A stretch of DNA of 40,696 nucleotides from Holophagae bacterium (GTDB taxonomy: Bacteria > Acidobacteriota > Thermoanaerobaculia > Thermoanaerobaculales > Sulfomarinibacteraceae). Below, piece by piece: positions 16,397-24,688 of this stretch (within the stretch, counting starts at the first letter, position 1; every line of letters begins with the position of its first letter). The position numbers were made by a program, and so were the translations under genes. The notes under the pieces are model-generated. The model was given only the letters and a program-made list of their open reading frames with translations. It did no database searches and had not been told where the DNA came from. Location: contig JAUXDC010000003.1 in the NCBI GenBank assembly GCA_030618605.1, forward strand, positions 1-40,696, given 5' to 3'.

Positions 16397-16430
16397 GGGA
16401 AGAAATAGATACTGGATACCGGAGGTGAGG

Positions 16431-16589
16431 AGCGTGTAGGGCATTAACGGCGGATGGATTTCGGAGGGTCGTGAAGTGCCATTTTGAGACGAATTCGAGG
16501 CGCTGTACTCTCTGTACGGGCAGAGGATACAACGAAAAAGGGCCTTCACGACACCCGAAAGGCACCGGTGATTTAATGCCCTACACCCT
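16431..16589 (+). repeat. Dispersed structured element, copy A (possible structured RNA)
   Basis: This 290-bp gap holds an element closed by a perfect 14-bp inverted repeat: GTGTAGGGCATTAA (16434-16447) and TTAATGCCCTACAC (16573-16586). Inside are TTTCGG/CCGAAA (16459-16464, 16555-16560), GTCGTGAAG/CTTCACGAC (16468-16476, 16544-16552) and a hairpin CTGTAC-TCTCT-GTACGG (16503-16519). A second copy at 20744-20907 shares the loop sequences but has different, still complementary helices. The downstream 100 bp (16590-16686) hold further short palindromes such as ACCCGCGAAGCGGGT. Confidence 0.65.
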
Positions 16590-16686
16590 CCGAGGAACCG
16601 ACGCCGGGCCGAAGGCCTGCCGAGCCGAAGGCTTGGACCCGCGAAGCGGGTGGCGTGGGCAAGGAACTGGACTCCCAAGCCTGCAG

Positions 16687-17436
16687 GTGCTCCCTGAGCT
16701 GAAGCATTCCACAAGGTGGTTCAAAATCCACCTGCTGACCCTGTGCTTCATCCTCGCATCCCTGGGTGCGTCGGCCGAGAGTCCGTGCAATCCGGAATCC
16801 ATCACCGCCGCCCAGTTGACGTACGACCTTGAGGCGGCAATCCCGGTCCTTGAGGCCTGTGAACTCGAGGCGCCGGTCAGAACCGGCGATGCCCACCGTG
16901 AACTGGTGGCCCGAGCAGCCCTACTGGTCGCTGAGTTGCACCGCATCGATTTTGAGGCGGCGCCCAAATCGGAACGACCCGAACGGAGGGCTCTCGGCAT
17001 ACTGATCGACGATGCAGCCGACACTGGACTGAAAAGCCTCAAAGACCTCCCGGAGACCTCGGAGCGACTTCGGCTCGAGGCCGATCTGCTGGCCACCAAG
17101 ATCCGTTCGGACTTCCGTGCCAAAAAGTACGGCAAGAAGATGAAGGCCGCTGCCGCCAGAGCTCTTGAACTCGATCCCTCAAGCGCCTGCGCCATCGTCT
17201 CCCAGGCCAAACCCTTCCTCTTCGCCGAGACCCGCCACGGCGGGGATCTCGATGAGGCAATCCGGCTGTTGGGAGAGGCGCTGGCACTTGAGCCCGCGCT
17301 CGAGAGCGCCCTACTCCTCCGGGCGTTGGCCTACGAACGAAATGGAAAGACCGAGGCCTCCCGGAAGGACCTGACAGCCGCCTTGGCCACCAATCCACAG
17401 TGCCGACCCGCGCGCGAGCGCCTCAAAGACCGGTAG
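16687..17436 (+). CDS. Secreted TPR-like protein
   Basis: Protein of about 249 residues. The best start is GTG 16687, which gives a basic stretch and a signal-like helix (HLLTLCFILASLGASAES); no strong ribosome-binding site is seen, so the start is uncertain. The C-terminal third has tetratricopeptide-like helical pairs: ARALELDPSSACAIVSQAKP, AIRLLGEALALEPALESALL and LRALAYERNGKTEASRKDL. The family is otherwise unrecognised. It probably resides in the periplasm and mediates protein contacts. It follows the exporter by 290 bp, with structured element copy A between them. Confidence 0.7.
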   Translation: MLPELKHSTRWFKIHLLTLCFILASLGASAESPCNPESITAAQLTYDLEAAIPVLEACELEAPVRTGDAHRELVARAALLVAELHRIDFEAAPKSERPERRALGILIDDAADTGLKSLKDLPETSERLRLEADLLATKIRSDFRAKKYGKKMKAAAARALELDPSSACAIVSQAKPFLFAETRHGGDLDEAIRLLGEALALEPALESALLLRALAYERNGKTEASRKDLTAALATNPQCRPARERLKDR

Positions 17437-17514
17437 GAACCTCTGCGTCGTACGGCTACCCGGTTTGTGTCTGCTACCCTCAAAATCGATTCTTCAAATC
17501 CCGGAGGTTGAATT

Positions 17515-18033
17515 ATGAAAAAACTCGTTGGTTTCATGCTGGCTTTGGCCGCCATGGCTGCTGTGCCCGCTAACGCTCAAAGCAGCAATGTTTTTTACGG
17601 CGGCGGTATCGGCCTGAGCTTCGGCACGATCGACTACATCGAGGTGGCGCCGATGATCGGCATCCAGGTGACGGATGAGTTCTCGACCGGCATCAATCTC
17701 CTCTACCGCTACCGGGACGACTCCAGATACAGCCCCAGCCTGTCGACCAACGATTACGGAGGCGGGTTATTCGCTCGTTATCGATTCCTTCCTAGCCTTT
17801 TTGCCCAGACAGAGTACGAATACCTCAGTTTCGAGTATTACGACTTCGACGGGAACACGGAGAGAGACACTTACTCCAGCTTTCTTGTTGGGGGCGGGCT
17901 ATCCCAGCCAATGGGCCACAATGTTGCGCTCAACGCCGTCGTCCTCTACAACATCTCCTACTCCGACTCTGATTTCTACCGGCCGTACGACAGCCCCTGG
18001 GTGGTCAGGGTCGGTGTTTCGGCCGGGTTTTGA
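17515..18033 (+). CDS. Small outer-membrane beta-barrel protein
   Basis: Exported protein of 172 residues: signal peptide MKKLVGFMLALAAMAAVPAN cut at NAQSS, then alternating aromatic strands (VFYGGGIGLSFGTIDYIEVA, YGGGLFARYRFLPSLFAQTE, SFLVGGGLSQPM) and a C-terminal GVSAGF ending in Phe, the usual BAM recognition residue. Length and strand count suit an eight-stranded OmpA/OmpX-like barrel. ATG follows GGAGG with 7-nt spacing. It converges with the nonaheme gene, leaving 9 bp between the stops. Confidence 0.8.
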   Translation: MKKLVGFMLALAAMAAVPANAQSSNVFYGGGIGLSFGTIDYIEVAPMIGIQVTDEFSTGINLLYRYRDDSRYSPSLSTNDYGGGLFARYRFLPSLFAQTEYEYLSFEYYDFDGNTERDTYSSFLVGGGLSQPMGHNVALNAVVLYNISYSDSDFYRPYDSPWVVRVGVSAGF

Positions 18034-18042
18034 GGAGGACCC

Positions 18043-20049
18043 TCAATCCCAGCCGGAAGTGTCTCCAGTTTCGAAGCCGTTGCTGAAGATTCCGCTGCCA
18101 CCGGTTACGTTGATGGTGACCAGGCCGAGGTTGGAATCTTCTTTGCCGTCCCAGGCAGCAAACGTGAAGTCGTCAACGCCGGAGAAGGCGGCGATCGGCC
18201 GGTAGTGGGCCTCGGATCCAACGATCCACGCCACACCCTGGTGTGGCTGGGATACGACTCTCAGCTCGAGCGCGTCGCCGTTGGGATCAACCGCACTCAG
18301 CGCGATGACTACCTCCATACCGGTAGTTGCCTCGGCAGTCTCATTCCCGACCGCCGCCGGCTGGTTGGTGCTGGGGTCTTCGCTGTCGGGACCGTTGTGG
18401 CAGGAGTAACAACCCACCCGGTAGCCCCGCCAAACATTCTTGTTGCCGAAACTGTCAGCATCAAGGATCCGATCTGCATGTGACTGCGAAAGAATGGTCC
18501 CTCGATTATCCACGCCATGACAGGCCTGGCACTGGGAGAGGGTTGCGCCGCCGCTGTCCTCAAAGGCATCAGGATGATTATCAACCCAGCTCTGGCCGAC
18601 TGGATGCATGCCGTGCGGGCCACCGTCGATGGTATTGGGCTCTGTACCGTGACAGCTAGCACACTCGACAAGTGTTCCGATGTGCCCCTGAAGTGCCGAA
18701 CTTTGTACGTTGTCGTTCCCGTGAGAAGCAGGAAAAATTGCATGGGTCGAACCGTGACAGGCGGAACACTGGAGCCCGCCATGCCCCGTCGAAAAACGGT
18801 AGAGGGAGGTGCCCGGAAGGGGCGTATTGGGGTCGGTCGCGAAAGTGTCGTCAACGGCCTCTCTTAACACGCCGGGAGAAGAAAATGCATCGGTATACCG
18901 GATCTGTCCGTTGTTGAGGACAGCCGTTCCTGTATGGCAATTCTGGCAGGTCGGTTCGTCGAACCAGCCCTCTCGGGTGTCGGCGCCGACGGTGCTCATC
19001 CCACCGTGGCAGCTCTGACACTGCATCGACAGGGCGCCGTCATTGCCGACCGCAGCGCCCATTGCGCCGCGGAGGCAGGCGGTATCTGAACCCGGGTGGC
19101 AGGTGTAGCAGGCTGTGCGATTTGACGAATCACCCAGGGCCATTCCGGTCACCGGATCGCTGACCTCTGAATGGAGACTGTGAATCGCCTCAGTCAGGGG
19201 CGAGATCCCCGCCACGCCGGTTCCAGGCAGGGCGTTACTCGAATGGCATGAGGCACACAAGATTGACCGGCCGCCAACAGCGGTAGCCTCCAGCCCAGCC
19301 GGATCAAATGACAGCGTTGCCAGCGCGTCGATGAAAACCGGGTTTCCACCTTCCGTCTCGTCGTGCAACCGAAGGAGGTTGAGACGGTAGTCCCGTTCAA
19401 CATCCCCATCCCACACCCACCCGCCGATCGGCTCGGCATCAGGTCCTGAACCCGAGGCATGACAGCTGCGACAGTCCATCTCGTCGGACACCGGAAGAAC
19501 GACATCGGTTGAGGCCAACACCAGTCCGGCCCCGTCGCGTGCCACCAAACGCATCATAGGATAGTAGTTTTTCGAAAATCCATCGTCGTAGGGCGTGATC
19601 GGCACACCTTCAGCCGTAAACCACTGGTGCCCGTCCTCCCATACCATTTCCTGGGGTGTATTACCGTCCCCCGGCATGTCAAACCCTGCCAGGCCCTCAT
19701 CCGGCAAAAGAGAAGCCCCGAAGAGGCTTCCGACATGATCCCAGAAGTTGCTCTTCCCGATCGACGTGACGTTGACCGAGCCGCCGGGATCGGCGACCGA
19801 TTCATACGTAACCGTAACTCCGGCAGGCACATCGACGAGATTCCCGCCAGGGTCGATCAACTGGGCGTGGACCGTATTGTACGGCGGCAGGATCGCCATG
19901 ACCGAATAGTCGGCGTCCATGCAGTGCATCCCGAGGTCATTCCATCCGACCAGCGTCCAGCCGCTGCTCCCGCCTCGCACTACCATTGCCGACATTCCTG
20001 CCACAAGGGCCAAGATCCCAAACCACACTGCCGAGGTCCTTCTGAACAT
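18043..20049 (-). CDS. Multiheme cytochrome c-type protein with nine CxxCH motifs
   Basis: Exported protein of 668 residues (signal-like MFRRTSAVWFGILALVAGMS). Nine heme-binding motifs are visible in order: CRSCH, CASCH, CYTCH, CQSCH, CQNCH, CSACH, CASCH, CQACH, CYSCH. An N-terminal region with WNDLGMHCMDADYSVMAILP precedes them. After the hemes comes an Ig/cadherin-like beta domain (VDPNGDALELRVVSQPHQG, FSGVDDFTFAAWDG). The end FSNGFETGDTSGWD resembles a sorting-tail motif common in Acidobacteriota-type secreted proteins. AAAGGAGAG precedes the ATG. A role in extracellular or periplasmic electron transfer is inferred; the redox partner is unknown. Confidence 0.9.
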   Translation of the reverse strand: MFRRTSAVWFGILALVAGMSAMVVRGGSSGWTLVGWNDLGMHCMDADYSVMAILPPYNTVHAQLIDPGGNLVDVPAGVTVTYESVADPGGSVNVTSIGKSNFWDHVGSLFGASLLPDEGLAGFDMPGDGNTPQEMVWEDGHQWFTAEGVPITPYDDGFSKNYYPMMRLVARDGAGLVLASTDVVLPVSDEMDCRSCHASGSGPDAEPIGGWVWDGDVERDYRLNLLRLHDETEGGNPVFIDALATLSFDPAGLEATAVGGRSILCASCHSSNALPGTGVAGISPLTEAIHSLHSEVSDPVTGMALGDSSNRTACYTCHPGSDTACLRGAMGAAVGNDGALSMQCQSCHGGMSTVGADTREGWFDEPTCQNCHTGTAVLNNGQIRYTDAFSSPGVLREAVDDTFATDPNTPLPGTSLYRFSTGHGGLQCSACHGSTHAIFPASHGNDNVQSSALQGHIGTLVECASCHGTEPNTIDGGPHGMHPVGQSWVDNHPDAFEDSGGATLSQCQACHGVDNRGTILSQSHADRILDADSFGNKNVWRGYRVGCYSCHNGPDSEDPSTNQPAAVGNETAEATTGMEVVIALSAVDPNGDALELRVVSQPHQGVAWIVGSEAHYRPIAAFSGVDDFTFAAWDGKEDSNLGLVTINVTGGSGIFSNGFETGDTSGWD

Positions 20050-20215
20050 AAATTCTCTCCTTTTTCATTTCGATATTGGCACACATATTCAATAATTAAT
20101 GTGACCGCGATCATCAATGGAACAGGGGAAAGACCCGACAAATCGGGAGAGTGGAAATATCAAGCGTCAACAGAGTGTTCTTGTAATGGCAACGCGATTT
20201 TGAAAGGGAGACATC

Positions 20216-20596
20216 ATGCCGAAAATTAACCGTTACGTCGACATCGACACCGTAGAGCGAGAGGCCAAGAAGGACTACATCGACCGCCACTCGCCGTTCA
20301 TCCACTGTGGGGACTCGGCCACCGCCGGCGAAAAATTCGCCGTCACCGTCAAGGTCGGCAACGAGTACGACCACCCGGACGACTTCGACCACTTCATCAA
20401 CAACGTTGCGCTCTACAATGGCGAGACGCTGTTGGGTCGGGCCGACTTCCCGCCGGGAACCCTGGGCAATCAGAAGTCTCAGGTTGAAGTTGTTTTCAAC
20501 ATCATCCCGACGAAGAAGCTCAAACTCGTGGCCCACGCCTACTGCACCAAGCACGGTCTGTGGGAGAGTGATCCGATAGAAGTAAGCGTCAGTTAA
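20216..20596 (+). CDS. Desulfoferrodoxin/superoxide reductase-like protein
   Basis: Protein of 126 residues of the neelaredoxin (class II superoxide reductase) fold, which reduces superoxide to peroxide at a non-heme iron. Candidate iron ligands are His25 and/or His30 in DRHSPFIHCGD, His53 and His59 in YDHPDDFDHFINN, and Cys110 and His113 in AYCTKHGLWES. The usual catalytic lysine next to the first histidine (EKHxP) appears to be replaced by Arg24, so superoxide chemistry may be altered. It starts at ATG with AAGGGAG upstream. It is divergent from the multiheme gene and followed by two terminators. Confidence 0.85.
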   Translation: MPKINRYVDIDTVEREAKKDYIDRHSPFIHCGDSATAGEKFAVTVKVGNEYDHPDDFDHFINNVALYNGETLLGRADFPPGTLGNQKSQVEVVFNIIPTKKLKLVAHAYCTKHGLWESDPIEVSVS

Positions 20597-20598
20597 AG

Positions 20599-20638
20599 CC
20601 GGCACTCGGGCGGGACGAACCCCGCCCTCCGGTTTTTC
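20599..20638 (+). terminator. Rho-independent terminator 1 after desulfoferrodoxin gene
   Basis: GGGCGGG (20608-20614) pairs with CCCGCCC (20621-20627), extended by outer CCGG/CCGG, and is followed by five T residues (20633-20637). It begins 2 bp after the stop codon. Confidence 0.85.
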
Positions 20639-20643
20639 TTGCA

Positions 20644-20670
20644 GGGGAGGGGTTTATCCCCTCCTTTTTT
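20644..20670 (+). terminator. Rho-independent terminator 2
   Basis: GGAGGGG (20646-20652) pairs with CCCCTCC (20658-20664) around a TTTAT loop, followed by six T residues. It backs up the first terminator, so the downstream operon probably has its own promoter within 20671-20948. Confidence 0.85.
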
Positions 20671-20691
20671 GTTCCACCTCTGCCCGGTTAG

Positions 20692-20757
20692 GAGTACACT
20701 ATCCGGACGCCTCTTGGCGCCACCGTTTTCGGTGGCCCGCTCCAGGAGCGTGTACTC
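20692..20757 (+). promoter_or_regulatory. Upstream hairpin competing with structured element copy B
   Basis: GAGTACAC (20692-20699) is complementary to GTGTACTC (20750-20757), and the loop contains a perfect hairpin GCCACCG-TTTT-CGGTGGC (20719-20736). The right arm overlaps the left arm of the closing helix of copy B, so the two pairings exclude each other. This could act as a switch ahead of the operon starting at 20949. Transcription through this region has not been shown. Confidence 0.4.
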
Positions 20758-20907
20758 ATAGATGGCGGATGGGTTTCGGAGGGCTGTTATGCCGTTCGAG
20801 GCACATTCGAGGCGCTGTACTGTGACCGGTACGGGCCGAGAATGGAACAAAGAACGGCCTTAACGGCACCCGAAAGGCGTCGCTGATTCTGTTCGGTACA
20901 CGTTCCT
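20744..20907 (+). repeat. Dispersed structured element, copy B (possible structured RNA)
   Basis: Second copy of the element at 16431-16589, in the same orientation. Closing helix AGGAGCGTGTAC (20744-20755) with GTACACGTTCCT (20896-20907); inner helices TTTCGG/CCGAAA (20774-20779, 20870-20875), GCTGTTA/TAACGGC (20783-20789, 20861-20867) and hairpin CTGTAC/GTACGG (20815-20820, 20829-20834). ATTCGAGGCGCTGTACT is identical in both copies, whereas paired positions change together. It ends 41 bp before the next start codon. Confidence 0.65.
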
Positions 20908-20948
20908 GACCCATCGGGGTGTGTCACGAGGTGGGAATGGAGACCACA

Positions 20949-22409
20949 ATGAAAAGCCACGAGATTCGCGCCCGTGCGGTTGAGCGCTGCCATGAAAAGG
21001 GCATCCTGATACCGACCCTGGCCCAACAGAAAGATCCCTCACTGATCCCCGACGCCGTCACCAGGCGACTCCCCAACATCGACATCCAGGATGTCGATCC
21101 CCTCAATCTCTTCCGGATCACCTGGTACAACGACCCCTCAAGCCACGGGTTTGGCGCGGTCAACACTTTCGAGCTGCCATCGGAGCTGACCGGGGTCGAG
21201 GCCCGCATCGTCGGCCTGGTCGGCCGCCACTTTCCCACGGGGACCCATAAGGTCGGAGCGGCTTTCGGATGTCTCGTGCCCCGCCTGGTGCATGGAGAGT
21301 TCGATCCGATCAACCAGGTGGCAGTCTGGCCGTCAACCGGCAACTACTGCCGCGGCGGCGCCTTCGACAGCGCCCTCCTGGGGTGTCATTCGGTAGCAAT
21401 CCTCCCCGAAGAAATGAGTCAGGAGCGCTTCCGCTGGCTGGAGGACATCGGCGCGGAGGTGTTCGCCACTCCGGGCTGCGAATCCAACGTCAAGGAGATC
21501 TTCGACAAATGCTGGGATCTGCGCGCCACCCGGCCTGAGGCGGTGATCTTCAATCAATTTGACGAGTTCGGGAACTATCTCTGGCACTGGTCCGTCACCG
21601 GCGCCGCGGTCGAGGACTGGCTCAGGAACAACGCCGGACCCAACGGCCGGCTAGCCGGCTGGGTTGGCGCCACGGGATCGGGCGGAACCCTGGCTGCGGG
21701 CGACTATCTCAAGGGCCGCTTCCCAGGAGCAACCATCACCGCGGCCGAAGCCCTCCAGTGCCCGACTCTCCTGGCCTGCGGCTTCGGCGGTCACCGCATC
21801 GAGGGCATCGGCGACAAGCATGTCCCCTGGATTCACAACGTGCGCACCACCGATGTCGTCACCGCCATTGACGACGAGGCCACAATGCGGCTCATGCGAC
21901 TGTTCAACGAAGACGTCGGACGAGACATCCTCGCCGACCGTGGCGTCCCGGATGCCGTCATCAGCCGGCTGGATGACCTCGGTATTTCCTCCATTTGTAA
22001 TTTACTGGCCGCAATCAAGACCGCGAAGTACTACGACCTCGGTCCAGACGACATCCTGGTGACGTCCTTCACGGACTCGGTCGAGATGTACCGTACCCGC
22101 CTTGACGAGATGAACGAGGCCCACGGCGTCTACACGGCAACCGACGCGGCAGTCGATTTTGAACGCCGACTGCTGGGCGCAACTACGGATCACCTGCGGG
22201 AACTGACCTATCGTGATCGCCGGGCCATTCACAACTTCAAGTATTTCACCTGGGTCGAACAACAGGGGCGCTCCGTCGAAGAGCTGGAAGAGCTGTGGAA
22301 TCCCTCCTTCTGGACCGATCTGACCGACGGCGTACCCGAATGGGACGAGGCGATCAATAAATTCAACCAGGACACCGGGGTGAAGGAACTGCTGGAGCAA
22401 ACAAAATGA
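20949..22409 (+). CDS. PLP-dependent fold-type II enzyme (YgeX-like/ammonia-lyase candidate)
   Basis: Cytoplasmic pyridoxal-phosphate enzyme of 486 residues. The Schiff-base lysine is Lys101 in HFPTGTHKVGAAFG, and GATGSGGTLAAGDYL is the phosphate-binding loop. It is related to the tryptophan-synthase-beta/cysteine-synthase group. ATG 20949 is preferred (GGAG 7 bp upstream); ATG 20937 is also possible. It is the first of four closely packed genes and overlaps ygeY by ATGA. In the E. coli ygeW-ygeX-ygeY set, YgeX is a 2,3-diaminopropionate ammonia-lyase, so a lyase acting on a diamino acid is plausible here, but substrate is not established. Confidence 0.78.
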   Translation: MKSHEIRARAVERCHEKGILIPTLAQQKDPSLIPDAVTRRLPNIDIQDVDPLNLFRITWYNDPSSHGFGAVNTFELPSELTGVEARIVGLVGRHFPTGTHKVGAAFGCLVPRLVHGEFDPINQVAVWPSTGNYCRGGAFDSALLGCHSVAILPEEMSQERFRWLEDIGAEVFATPGCESNVKEIFDKCWDLRATRPEAVIFNQFDEFGNYLWHWSVTGAAVEDWLRNNAGPNGRLAGWVGATGSGGTLAAGDYLKGRFPGATITAAEALQCPTLLACGFGGHRIEGIGDKHVPWIHNVRTTDVVTAIDDEATMRLMRLFNEDVGRDILADRGVPDAVISRLDDLGISSICNLLAAIKTAKYYDLGPDDILVTSFTDSVEMYRTRLDEMNEAHGVYTATDAAVDFERRLLGATTDHLRELTYRDRRAIHNFKYFTWVEQQGRSVEELEELWNPSFWTDLTDGVPEWDEAINKFNQDTGVKELLEQTK

Positions 22410-23599
22410 ACGCAACTGGAAAACAGGCTCTCGAGGCCGCACAACTGATTGAACGAGATATCGTCAGCTTCCTTCGCCGCATGATCGCCATCCCGGCGGA
22501 GAGTCTGCAGGAGAAGGAGCGCTGCGAGCTGGTCAAGGCCGAGTTCGAGAAACTGGGCTTTGACGAAGTCTTTTTCGACGGGCTGGGCACAGTCGTCGCC
22601 CGCATCGGCAACGGCCCCTTCAAAATACTGATGGACGGCCACATCGACTGCGTCGGCGTCGGCAATCCGGCCTCGTGGGACTACGATCCCTTCGAGGGCA
22701 AGGAAGAAAACGGTGAGATCTGGGGTCGGGGTGCAGTGGACGAACTGCCCGCGATCGCTGCGATGGCCTTTGGCGCCCGACTCCTGATGGACCGCGGTTG
22801 GCCCGAAGGCATCACCCTCTACCTCTCCGCCTCGGTGATGGAGGAAGACTGCGACGGCCACTGCATGCTCCACTTGATCGAAAAAGAAGGCATCAAGCCC
22901 GACGTCGTCATTCTGGGAGAACCCACCGATTTGGATATCTACCGCGGTCACCGGGGTCGGATGGAAGCGACGATCACAACAAGGGGCCGCTCGGCCCACG
23001 GCGCCCACGCCCACCACGGTGTCAATGCCCTCTACAAGATGGCGCCGATTATCCTGGATGTCGAGAAGCTCAACGAGAACCTCGCCCACGACGAGTTCCT
23101 GGGTTCCGGTTCGATCATCGTCTCCCACATCTCAGTCGACACCCCGTCCCTCAACGCCGTCCCTGACCGCGCCACGATCACCCTGGACCGTCGAATGACG
23201 GTCGGCGAGACAGTCGAGATCGTGCTGGCAGAGCTTCGAGCCTTGCCCCATTTGGGCGATGCCGAGGTCGAACTGCTCCACTATGACGAGACCAGCTGGA
23301 CCGGAGCACAGGCCACCCAAGAGAAGTACTTCCCCACCTGGGTGCTCGATGAAGACCATCCGTTGGTTCAGGGCGCCGCCAAGGCCGCTGCCGCAGTGCT
23401 CGACGAGCCGCCTGAAATTTCTCGCTGGCATTTCTCGACCAACGGCGTCGCCACCATGGGCCGCCTGGGTATCCCGTCGATCGGCTTCGCCCCCGGCCTC
23501 GAAGAGCTGGCCCACACCACCCAGGAACACGTCAAAATCGAGGATCTTGTCAAGGCTGCCGCTGTCTATAGTTTGATGCCGGAAGCCCTTCTCAAATGA
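22406..23599 (+). CDS. ygeY: YgeY-family M20 metallohydrolase
   Basis: M20-type zinc hydrolase of 397 residues. Metal-site features: DGHIDCVGVG (His and Asp), the WGRGAVDELPAIAAM block with a bridging aspartate, VMEEDCDGHC with the catalytic glutamates, and ILGEPTDLDIYRGHRGRME. These are characteristic of the YgeY 'selenium metabolism-linked hydrolase' group, which has been linked to anaerobic purine and ureido catabolism. Its ATG overlaps the previous stop. It probably cleaves an amide or ureido bond of an intermediate used by the neighbouring enzymes. Confidence 0.88.
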   Translation: MNATGKQALEAAQLIERDIVSFLRRMIAIPAESLQEKERCELVKAEFEKLGFDEVFFDGLGTVVARIGNGPFKILMDGHIDCVGVGNPASWDYDPFEGKEENGEIWGRGAVDELPAIAAMAFGARLLMDRGWPEGITLYLSASVMEEDCDGHCMLHLIEKEGIKPDVVILGEPTDLDIYRGHRGRMEATITTRGRSAHGAHAHHGVNALYKMAPIILDVEKLNENLAHDEFLGSGSIIVSHISVDTPSLNAVPDRATITLDRRMTVGETVEIVLAELRALPHLGDAEVELLHYDETSWTGAQATQEKYFPTWVLDEDHPLVQGAAKAAAAVLDEPPEISRWHFSTNGVATMGRLGIPSIGFAPGLEELAHTTQEHVKIEDLVKAAAVYSLMPEALLK

Positions 23600-23710
23600 A
23601 CCCCCCTTTCCTTTTTATTGATTTGGATTTCCAGTGGAGTCGCTGGACGAAACGAACCCCTTCAACAGGGAATCCAAACCAAAAAAAAGGACCCACGGAA
23701 AGGTCAGAAA

Positions 23711-24688
23711 ATGCAAACAAAGCTTAAGGGCAAAGACTTCATCACAACCCAGGACTGGACTGTCGAGGAGATTGAGACGATCATTTCCCTCGCCGAAGAA
23801 CTCAAGCTGGCCAAGGCCACCGGTCGCAAGACGCCGTGGCTCGACGCCAAGACCCTCTACATGATCTTCTTCGATTCCTCGACGAGGACCCGAAATTCCT
23901 TCGAGACCGGCATCACGCAGCTCGGCGGCCACGGGATCTTCCTTTCTCCGGACAAGATGCAGATCTCCCACGGCGAGAATGCCCGTGACACCGCTAACGT
24001 CTTGTCCCGATACGGCGATGCAATCGCCGTCCGCCACTGTGCTCTCAACGAGGGCAACCCCTACATCCGCGACCTTGCCGAGCACGCCGACATACCGGTG
24101 ATCTCGATGCAATGCGACGTCTACCACCCCTGTCAGATCCTGGCGGACTACCTGACGATCAAGGAGAAGTTCTCCGGCCGGACCAAGGGTCTCAAATTGG
24201 GGGTCGCCTGGACCTCGGCGCCCAACTACGTGCGGCCGTTGTCGGTTCCTCAAAGCCTGATTCTGATGATGCCCCGGATGGGCATCGACGTCACTCTGGC
24301 CTATCCGCCGGAGTTCAAGCTGATGCCGGAGATCGAGGAACAGGCCCGGGCGAATGCCAAGGCAGCCGGTTCGTCGTTTGAGATCACCAATCAGTTTGAA
24401 AGCGCCTTCGAAGATGCAGATATGGTCATTCCAAAGTCGTGGGGTCCCTTGATGACCACCACCGACACGCCCGAGGGCCTCAGTCTGATCGAGAAATACC
24501 CCTCGTGGCGCTGTGATGCCGAGAAGATGGCCCTGGCCAAGGACCACTGCCTCTACATGCACCCACTGCCCGCCGACCGCGGCCGCGAGGTGACCAATGA
24601 GGTGATCGACGGACCCAACTCCGTCGTCTACGATGAAGCCGAAAACCGGCTTCACGTGCAGAAGGCACTGATGGCTCTGACCATGTAG
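23711..24688 (+). CDS. ygeW: Knotted carbamoyltransferase, YgeW type
   Basis: Aspartate/ornithine-carbamoyltransferase-fold enzyme of 325 residues starting at ATG 23711 (AAGG upstream); longer in-frame starts give an implausible N-terminus. Carbamoyl-phosphate-binding motifs are FFDSSTRTRNSFE and MHPLPADRGREV, with QCDVYHPCQILADYL between them. E. coli YgeW is about 70 residues longer and has HCLPAD, so equivalence is by neighbourhood and general similarity. The likely role is phosphorolysis of a ureido compound to an amine plus carbamoyl phosphate, giving an energy-yielding route with a carbamate kinase, which is not encoded in this window. Confidence 0.8.
   Translation: MQTKLKGKDFITTQDWTVEEIETIISLAEELKLAKATGRKTPWLDAKTLYMIFFDSSTRTRNSFETGITQLGGHGIFLSPDKMQISHGENARDTANVLSRYGDAIAVRHCALNEGNPYIRDLAEHADIPVISMQCDVYHPCQILADYLTIKEKFSGRTKGLKLGVAWTSAPNYVRPLSVPQSLILMMPRMGIDVTLAYPPEFKLMPEIEEQARANAKAAGSSFEITNQFESAFEDADMVIPKSWGPLMTTTDTPEGLSLIEKYPSWRCDAEKMALAKDHCLYMHPLPADRGREVTNEVIDGPNSVVYDEAENRLHVQKALMALTM

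Follow-up and report, generated by a model that had tools for sequence, protein, structure and literature searches.

A probable MITE-like palindromic mobile element with a conserved fold in Thermoanaerobaculales and more distant Acidobacteriota

The window, i.e., the whole stretch of 40,696 nucleotides of Holophagae bacterium DNA analyzed here, carries two hairpin repeats that are very likely copies of a non-autonomous palindromic (MITE-like) mobile element of ~165 bp, present in Thermoanaerobaculales and in more distant Acidobacteriota. Like palindromic MITE-like elements in general, the repeat is shorter than 200 bp, occurs in scattered copies, encodes no transposase, has terminal inverted repeats, and shows empty and filled sites between relatives. 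The element is both mobile and fold-conserving, and the covariation of its arms is a property of a mobile element. Compensatory base change alone thus does not tell a structured RNA and a mobile palindrome apart, and the element should not be listed as an independent regulatory RNA when new RNA families are compiled. Its hosts are a group of uncultured Acidobacteriota, a phylum that has received little study, and the family seems not to have been described before. No match was found in Rfam 15, either at the gathering threshold over the whole window or at E values up to 1 over 16400-20950, nor in plasmid, phage, and viral collections, and a limited literature search returned nothing on this family.

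Copy 1 extends over 16426-16594 on the + strand, full length by the covariance model (cmsearch R1, 184.5 bits). Its left terminal inverted repeat is AGGAGCGTGTAGGGCATTAA (16428-16447, +; from the sequence) and its right one is TTAATGCCCTACACCCTCC (16573-16591, +; from the sequence and the alignment). Copy 2 lies at 20742-20909 (+; cmsearch R1, 145.4 bits), with the sequence giving a left terminal arm AGGAGCGTGTAC (20744-20755, +) and a right terminal arm GGTACACGTTCCT (20895-20907, +). An earlier note on this DNA had placed two matching + strand copies at 16431-16589 and 20744-20907; both are present, and their true ends lie slightly outside these limits. The loops that it listed as common, ATTCGAGGCGCTGTACT, GGCGGATGG, and ACCCGAAAGGC, were found in both copies, and the inner helix it described (GTCGTGA/TCACGAC against GCTGTTA/TAACGGC) does differ by two double substitutions and one change to G-U. 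Copy 2 represents a diverged subfamily, with arms that differ from those of copy 1 and the same loops. Each copy is predicted to form a single long hairpin, with energies of -83.8 kcal/mol for copy 1 (z -6.95 against shuffled sequences) and -89.2 kcal/mol for copy 2 (z -6.09). A different repeat of ~70-75 bp, comprising three small hairpins with GAA loops and an outer closing stem, abuts copy 1 at 16593-16667; dozens of copies, at times in tandem, occur in genomes G000-G003, and the 16400-20950 search of Rfam at E up to 1 gave no match for it. On the 3' side of copy 2, genes for a PLP-dependent enzyme, an M20 peptidase, and an OTCase-like protein stand in a row at 20919-24688, resembling a ygeX-ygeY-ygeW cluster.

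At least 15 copies of the hairpin repeat (165-170 bp) occur in its own draft genome, where a DNA search gave 15 matches. Among the relatives searched, three genomes of the same genus and G004 have similar copy numbers, and copies in other genera of the family are fewer or diverged. With a covariance model built from 63 copies, G004 and G016 each yielded ~30 copies. The model also matched two full-length copies in each of two further families of the class and six in the single-contig genome G446, which belongs to another class of Acidobacteriota. Such a search of the genome and its relatives had been proposed in the earlier note, and it returned many further copies with helices maintained by covariation. 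When 84,980 species genomes were scanned for a conserved core pattern and the matches were checked with a profile, all true copies came from assemblies of Thermoanaerobaculales or Acidobacteriota, and the remaining pattern matches were due to chance. The distant copies keep the length of 167-170 bp (one is cut by masked sequence), the ends CTAGGAG...CTCCTAG, and the full hairpin with different arms, and those of G446 and G110 also retain an apex-proximal motif with tandem G-A mismatches. Since the distant alignments were fitted to the model, the evidence there is each copy's own fold and not the pair counts. Shortened derivatives of ~64-70 bp that retain both ends of the 165-bp element were seen at L266:1007-1070 and L103:1282-1349. 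Two copies in G446 (L363:8013-8462 and L364:7924-8373) have a further 280 bp in common on one side at 98.9% identity, and other repeats adjoin them.

The fold was evaluated on alignment A2, comprising 63 copies and 49 model pairs. Standard pairs fill 94.8% of the model-pair cells against 88.5% after shuffling, and pairing falls to 38-47% when the partner is slid by 1-3 columns, a comparison that favors the unslid version because the structure was derived from the same sequences. Double changes occur in 21 of the 49 pairs, and both sides are changed in 152 cells against a shuffled mean of 42. The observed pairing and double-change values were reached by none of 500 shuffles; related copies inflate this test, but the gap is large. 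The compensatory changes noticed in the two window copies are real and hold across the 63 copies and the relatives. In the outer stem, pair 8-179 is a C-C mismatch in some young copies, so perfect pairing is not required. Quasipalindrome correction perfects imperfect palindromes, and such template switching within the inverted repeat could keep the arms complementary without selection on the fold. Internal mismatches, namely GGAGGG against ACCCGAAA and the tandem G-A, nevertheless persist across families where correction should erase them, and adjacent pairs covary; this explanation is very unlikely.

The fold could also be that of a structured non-coding or cis-regulatory RNA, as the earlier note held, with the copies serving as regulatory sites whose transcribed hairpin acts on the neighboring gene. 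The strong covariation and the conserved loops agree with this, as does the recurrence of the tandem G-A motif (ATTCGAG opposite CGAGAAT) in distant families. The excess of G-U over A-C cells in pairs (193 vs. 102) does not decide between the strands or between RNA and DNA, because unpaired columns show the same substitution direction (231:164 against 142:94, p = 0.74). Against the RNA explanation, the element is missing from the same loci in close relatives. Copy 1 corresponds to an empty orthologous site in G003, where 4 bases separate the matches to query bases 825 and 1001, and the site of copy 2 is empty in G002 and G004 and filled in G003. Joined-flank searches found empty sites in relatives for at least 11 further copies, while G000 and G003 both carry the element at four loci. 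Empty sites at matching loci of relatives mean that the element moves, and it is not regarded as a gene-specific RNA switch. The earlier argument that covarying arms speak for RNA rather than for transposon ends is not supported, in view of the fixed terminal inverted repeats, the scattered positions, and the empty sites, which indicate insertion. At L137 (G001:C283), which has no element where G000 carries copy L012, a different insertion of ~180 bp lies ~35 bp downstream.

The location of the copies bears on the same question. A simple and approximate codon-usage gene caller placed none of 84 copies within a gene. Of 61 gene 3' ends facing the element, 43 fall within -22 to +15 nt of it, compared with 14 of 61 facing starts. 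In 19 cases, the terminal TAG of the element is the stop codon of the upstream gene. Both window copies are on the + strand as first described, but preceding a gene is not the rule, since most copies abut a gene 3' end and both orientations occur. An RNA acting on the adjacent gene would be favored by a slight tendency of copies to share the orientation of both neighbors (28 against 15, p = 0.07) and by the slow change of the four copies common to G000 and G003. The neighbors, however, differ between copies, the usual place is at 3' ends and not in 5' leaders, and Rfam holds no match, so that the RNA explanation is judged unlikely. An orthologous insertion at L009:1502-1669 and L089:1771-1938 follows the third codon of a miaA-like gene; by reading of the sequence, the right end of the element supplies an ATG that can restore the start and frame of that gene.

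The four copies in question differ at 22 of ~666 positions (3.3%) against ~10% in partly coding flanks, a comparison that covers four loci and for which gene conversion is a possible cause. This change, ~3 times slower than that of the flanks, indicates that some copies may be useful to the host, and it hints at constraint on the retained copies. Identity of 94-99% in copies whose flanks are 85-92% identical is not what would be expected of a purely selfish repeat undergoing decay.

The ends of the element are fixed as C-YAGGAG...CTCCTR-G, and the terminal inverted repeat has the consensus AGGAGSGTGTAGGGCATTGA at both ends in the 63 copies. Conservation is ~0.96 for GGAG and CTCC and 0.6-0.94 for the outer C-YA and TR-G. 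The tetranucleotide CTAG is very rare in the window (9 observed vs. 147 expected), so its presence at most element ends is not due to chance. No target duplication of 3-9 bp was found, and none longer than 2 bp is detectable. Of 79 copies, 26 have TA at each end, and the clearest junction, AAAAT-TA-[element]-TA-GCGGC in the filled site L088 vs. AAAAT-TA-ACGGC in the empty site L248, is a clean TA case. Other empty sites read C-TN-G; since N, the base after T, is often not A, an exact TA duplication is not proven, and a duplication of TA at insertion is regarded as likely from these junctions. A second hairpin family of ~77 bp (L280:2449-2545, L281:2301-2397, L282:2567-2663, L283:2294-2385, and L272:2883-2976) has the same terminal repeats as the 165-bp element (AGGAGCCTGTAGGGCA), often followed by TAATGCGCTGCGCGCATTGT. 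These common ends suggest that one transposase may serve several elements.

The mobilizer search covered three transposase families in draft genomes in which many copies lie at contig ends, so a mobilizer not being found is weak evidence. Among accepted elements of this class, moreover, some have no autonomous partner with the same ends. No IS630-type transposase (PF13358) was detected in G000-G005, G016, and G019, copy-rich genomes included, and an IS630/Tc1-mobilized MITE was rejected because the carrier genomes searched lack this family. None of the PF01609 and PF01797 (DDE_Tnp_1 and Y1) genes in copy-rich genomes is flanked by element ends, and a longer element framed by these ends was not present in 1.57 Mb of sequence. 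A REP/RAYT system was also rejected, as the element is 165 bp long and not a 20-40 bp palindrome, and the Y1 genes examined have no adjoining copy. A related idea is that an HUH (Y1) transposase or tyrosine recombinase mobilizes a single-stranded DNA hairpin in a REP- or attC-like manner. The folded strand would then be the substrate, which would account for the conservation of fold rather than sequence; most genomes of the family have Y1_Tnp genes, insertion leaves no clear duplication, and the fold is kept in full. Y1 genes are, however, also present in element-free genomes and were not found in three carriers, and no Y1 gene is flanked by the element. Its ends are symmetric inverted repeats, unlike those of IS200/IS605, and lack the GTTRRRY cores that attC sites possess, which leaves such single-strand transfer improbable.

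For the non-autonomous mobile element preferred here, a transposase acting in trans would recognize ends of the AGGAGNSTGNNGGGC type and insert copies at TA-centered, CTAG-like sites. If an autonomous partner exists, its mobilizer gene would be bounded by CTAGGAGNCTG...CAGNCTCCTAG. Copies would survive chiefly next to a stop codon; there, the upstream reading frame can terminate at the TAG of the element, and a stable hairpin would form the 3' end of the transcript. Better tolerance or propagation of copies with folding transcripts (or single strands) is the probable reason for the conservation of the fold. A more far-reaching proposal, given only a slim chance, is a phylum-wide mobile lineage that inherits a folded molecule and not a sequence. 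In this view, a structured RNA (or folded single strand) would be transposable and would settle at gene 3' ends, where it brings along both the stop codon and a protective hairpin, and the host would keep some of its copies. The copy number, divergence, and empty sites of the element make it a natural test case for selection on a fold and for the stage at which it acts, whether transposition, transcript stability, or host use.

The family is of the ERIC, Correia, and YPAL kind (PMC2229807, PMC10969869). ERIC (IRU, RU-1) of enterobacteria is a palindromic intergenic repeat of 127 bp with terminal TA and a stem-loop transcript, and at gene 3' ends it can alter mRNA decay, according to a review (PMC2229807, PMC10969869). 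The present element is likewise a short palindromic intergenic repeat with TA termini and a long (predicted) stem-loop, mobile without a protein of its own, but it is 165 bp long, not A+T-rich, and unrelated in sequence, host, and arms. YPAL (RU-2) of Yersinia has ~168 bp, internal inverted repeats, no terminal TA, and duplications of 3-26 bp (PMC2229807, PMC2759123). It resembles the present element in its near-equal length, palindromic nature, base composition that is not A+T-rich, and empty and filled sites between relatives, whereas the inverted repeats are terminal here and no long duplication was seen. Correia (NEMIS) elements of Neisseria, the long hairpin transcripts of which are cut by RNase III (PMC2229807, PMC10969869), are also intergenic, with 100-160 bp and terminal inverted repeats ending in TA, but their sequence is unrelated. 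RUP of Streptococcus pneumoniae and IS630/Tc1 elements have a similar TA-centered target (PMC2229807, PMC2170065), and the title of Tenzen & Ohtsubo 1991, as cited in PMC2170065, gives the target preference of IS630 as TA within CTAG; in contrast, the copy-rich genomes here carry no PF13358 gene. MITEPsy1 of Pseudomonas syringae, likely derived from IS5, inserts at CTAG or YTAA (PMC3189936). Its CTAG-type insertion and a terminal repeat starting GGAAGGT, similar to GGAGGGT here, resemble the present element, which differs from the 100 bp and 4-nt duplication of MITEPsy1 in having ~165 bp and no duplication longer than 2 bp.
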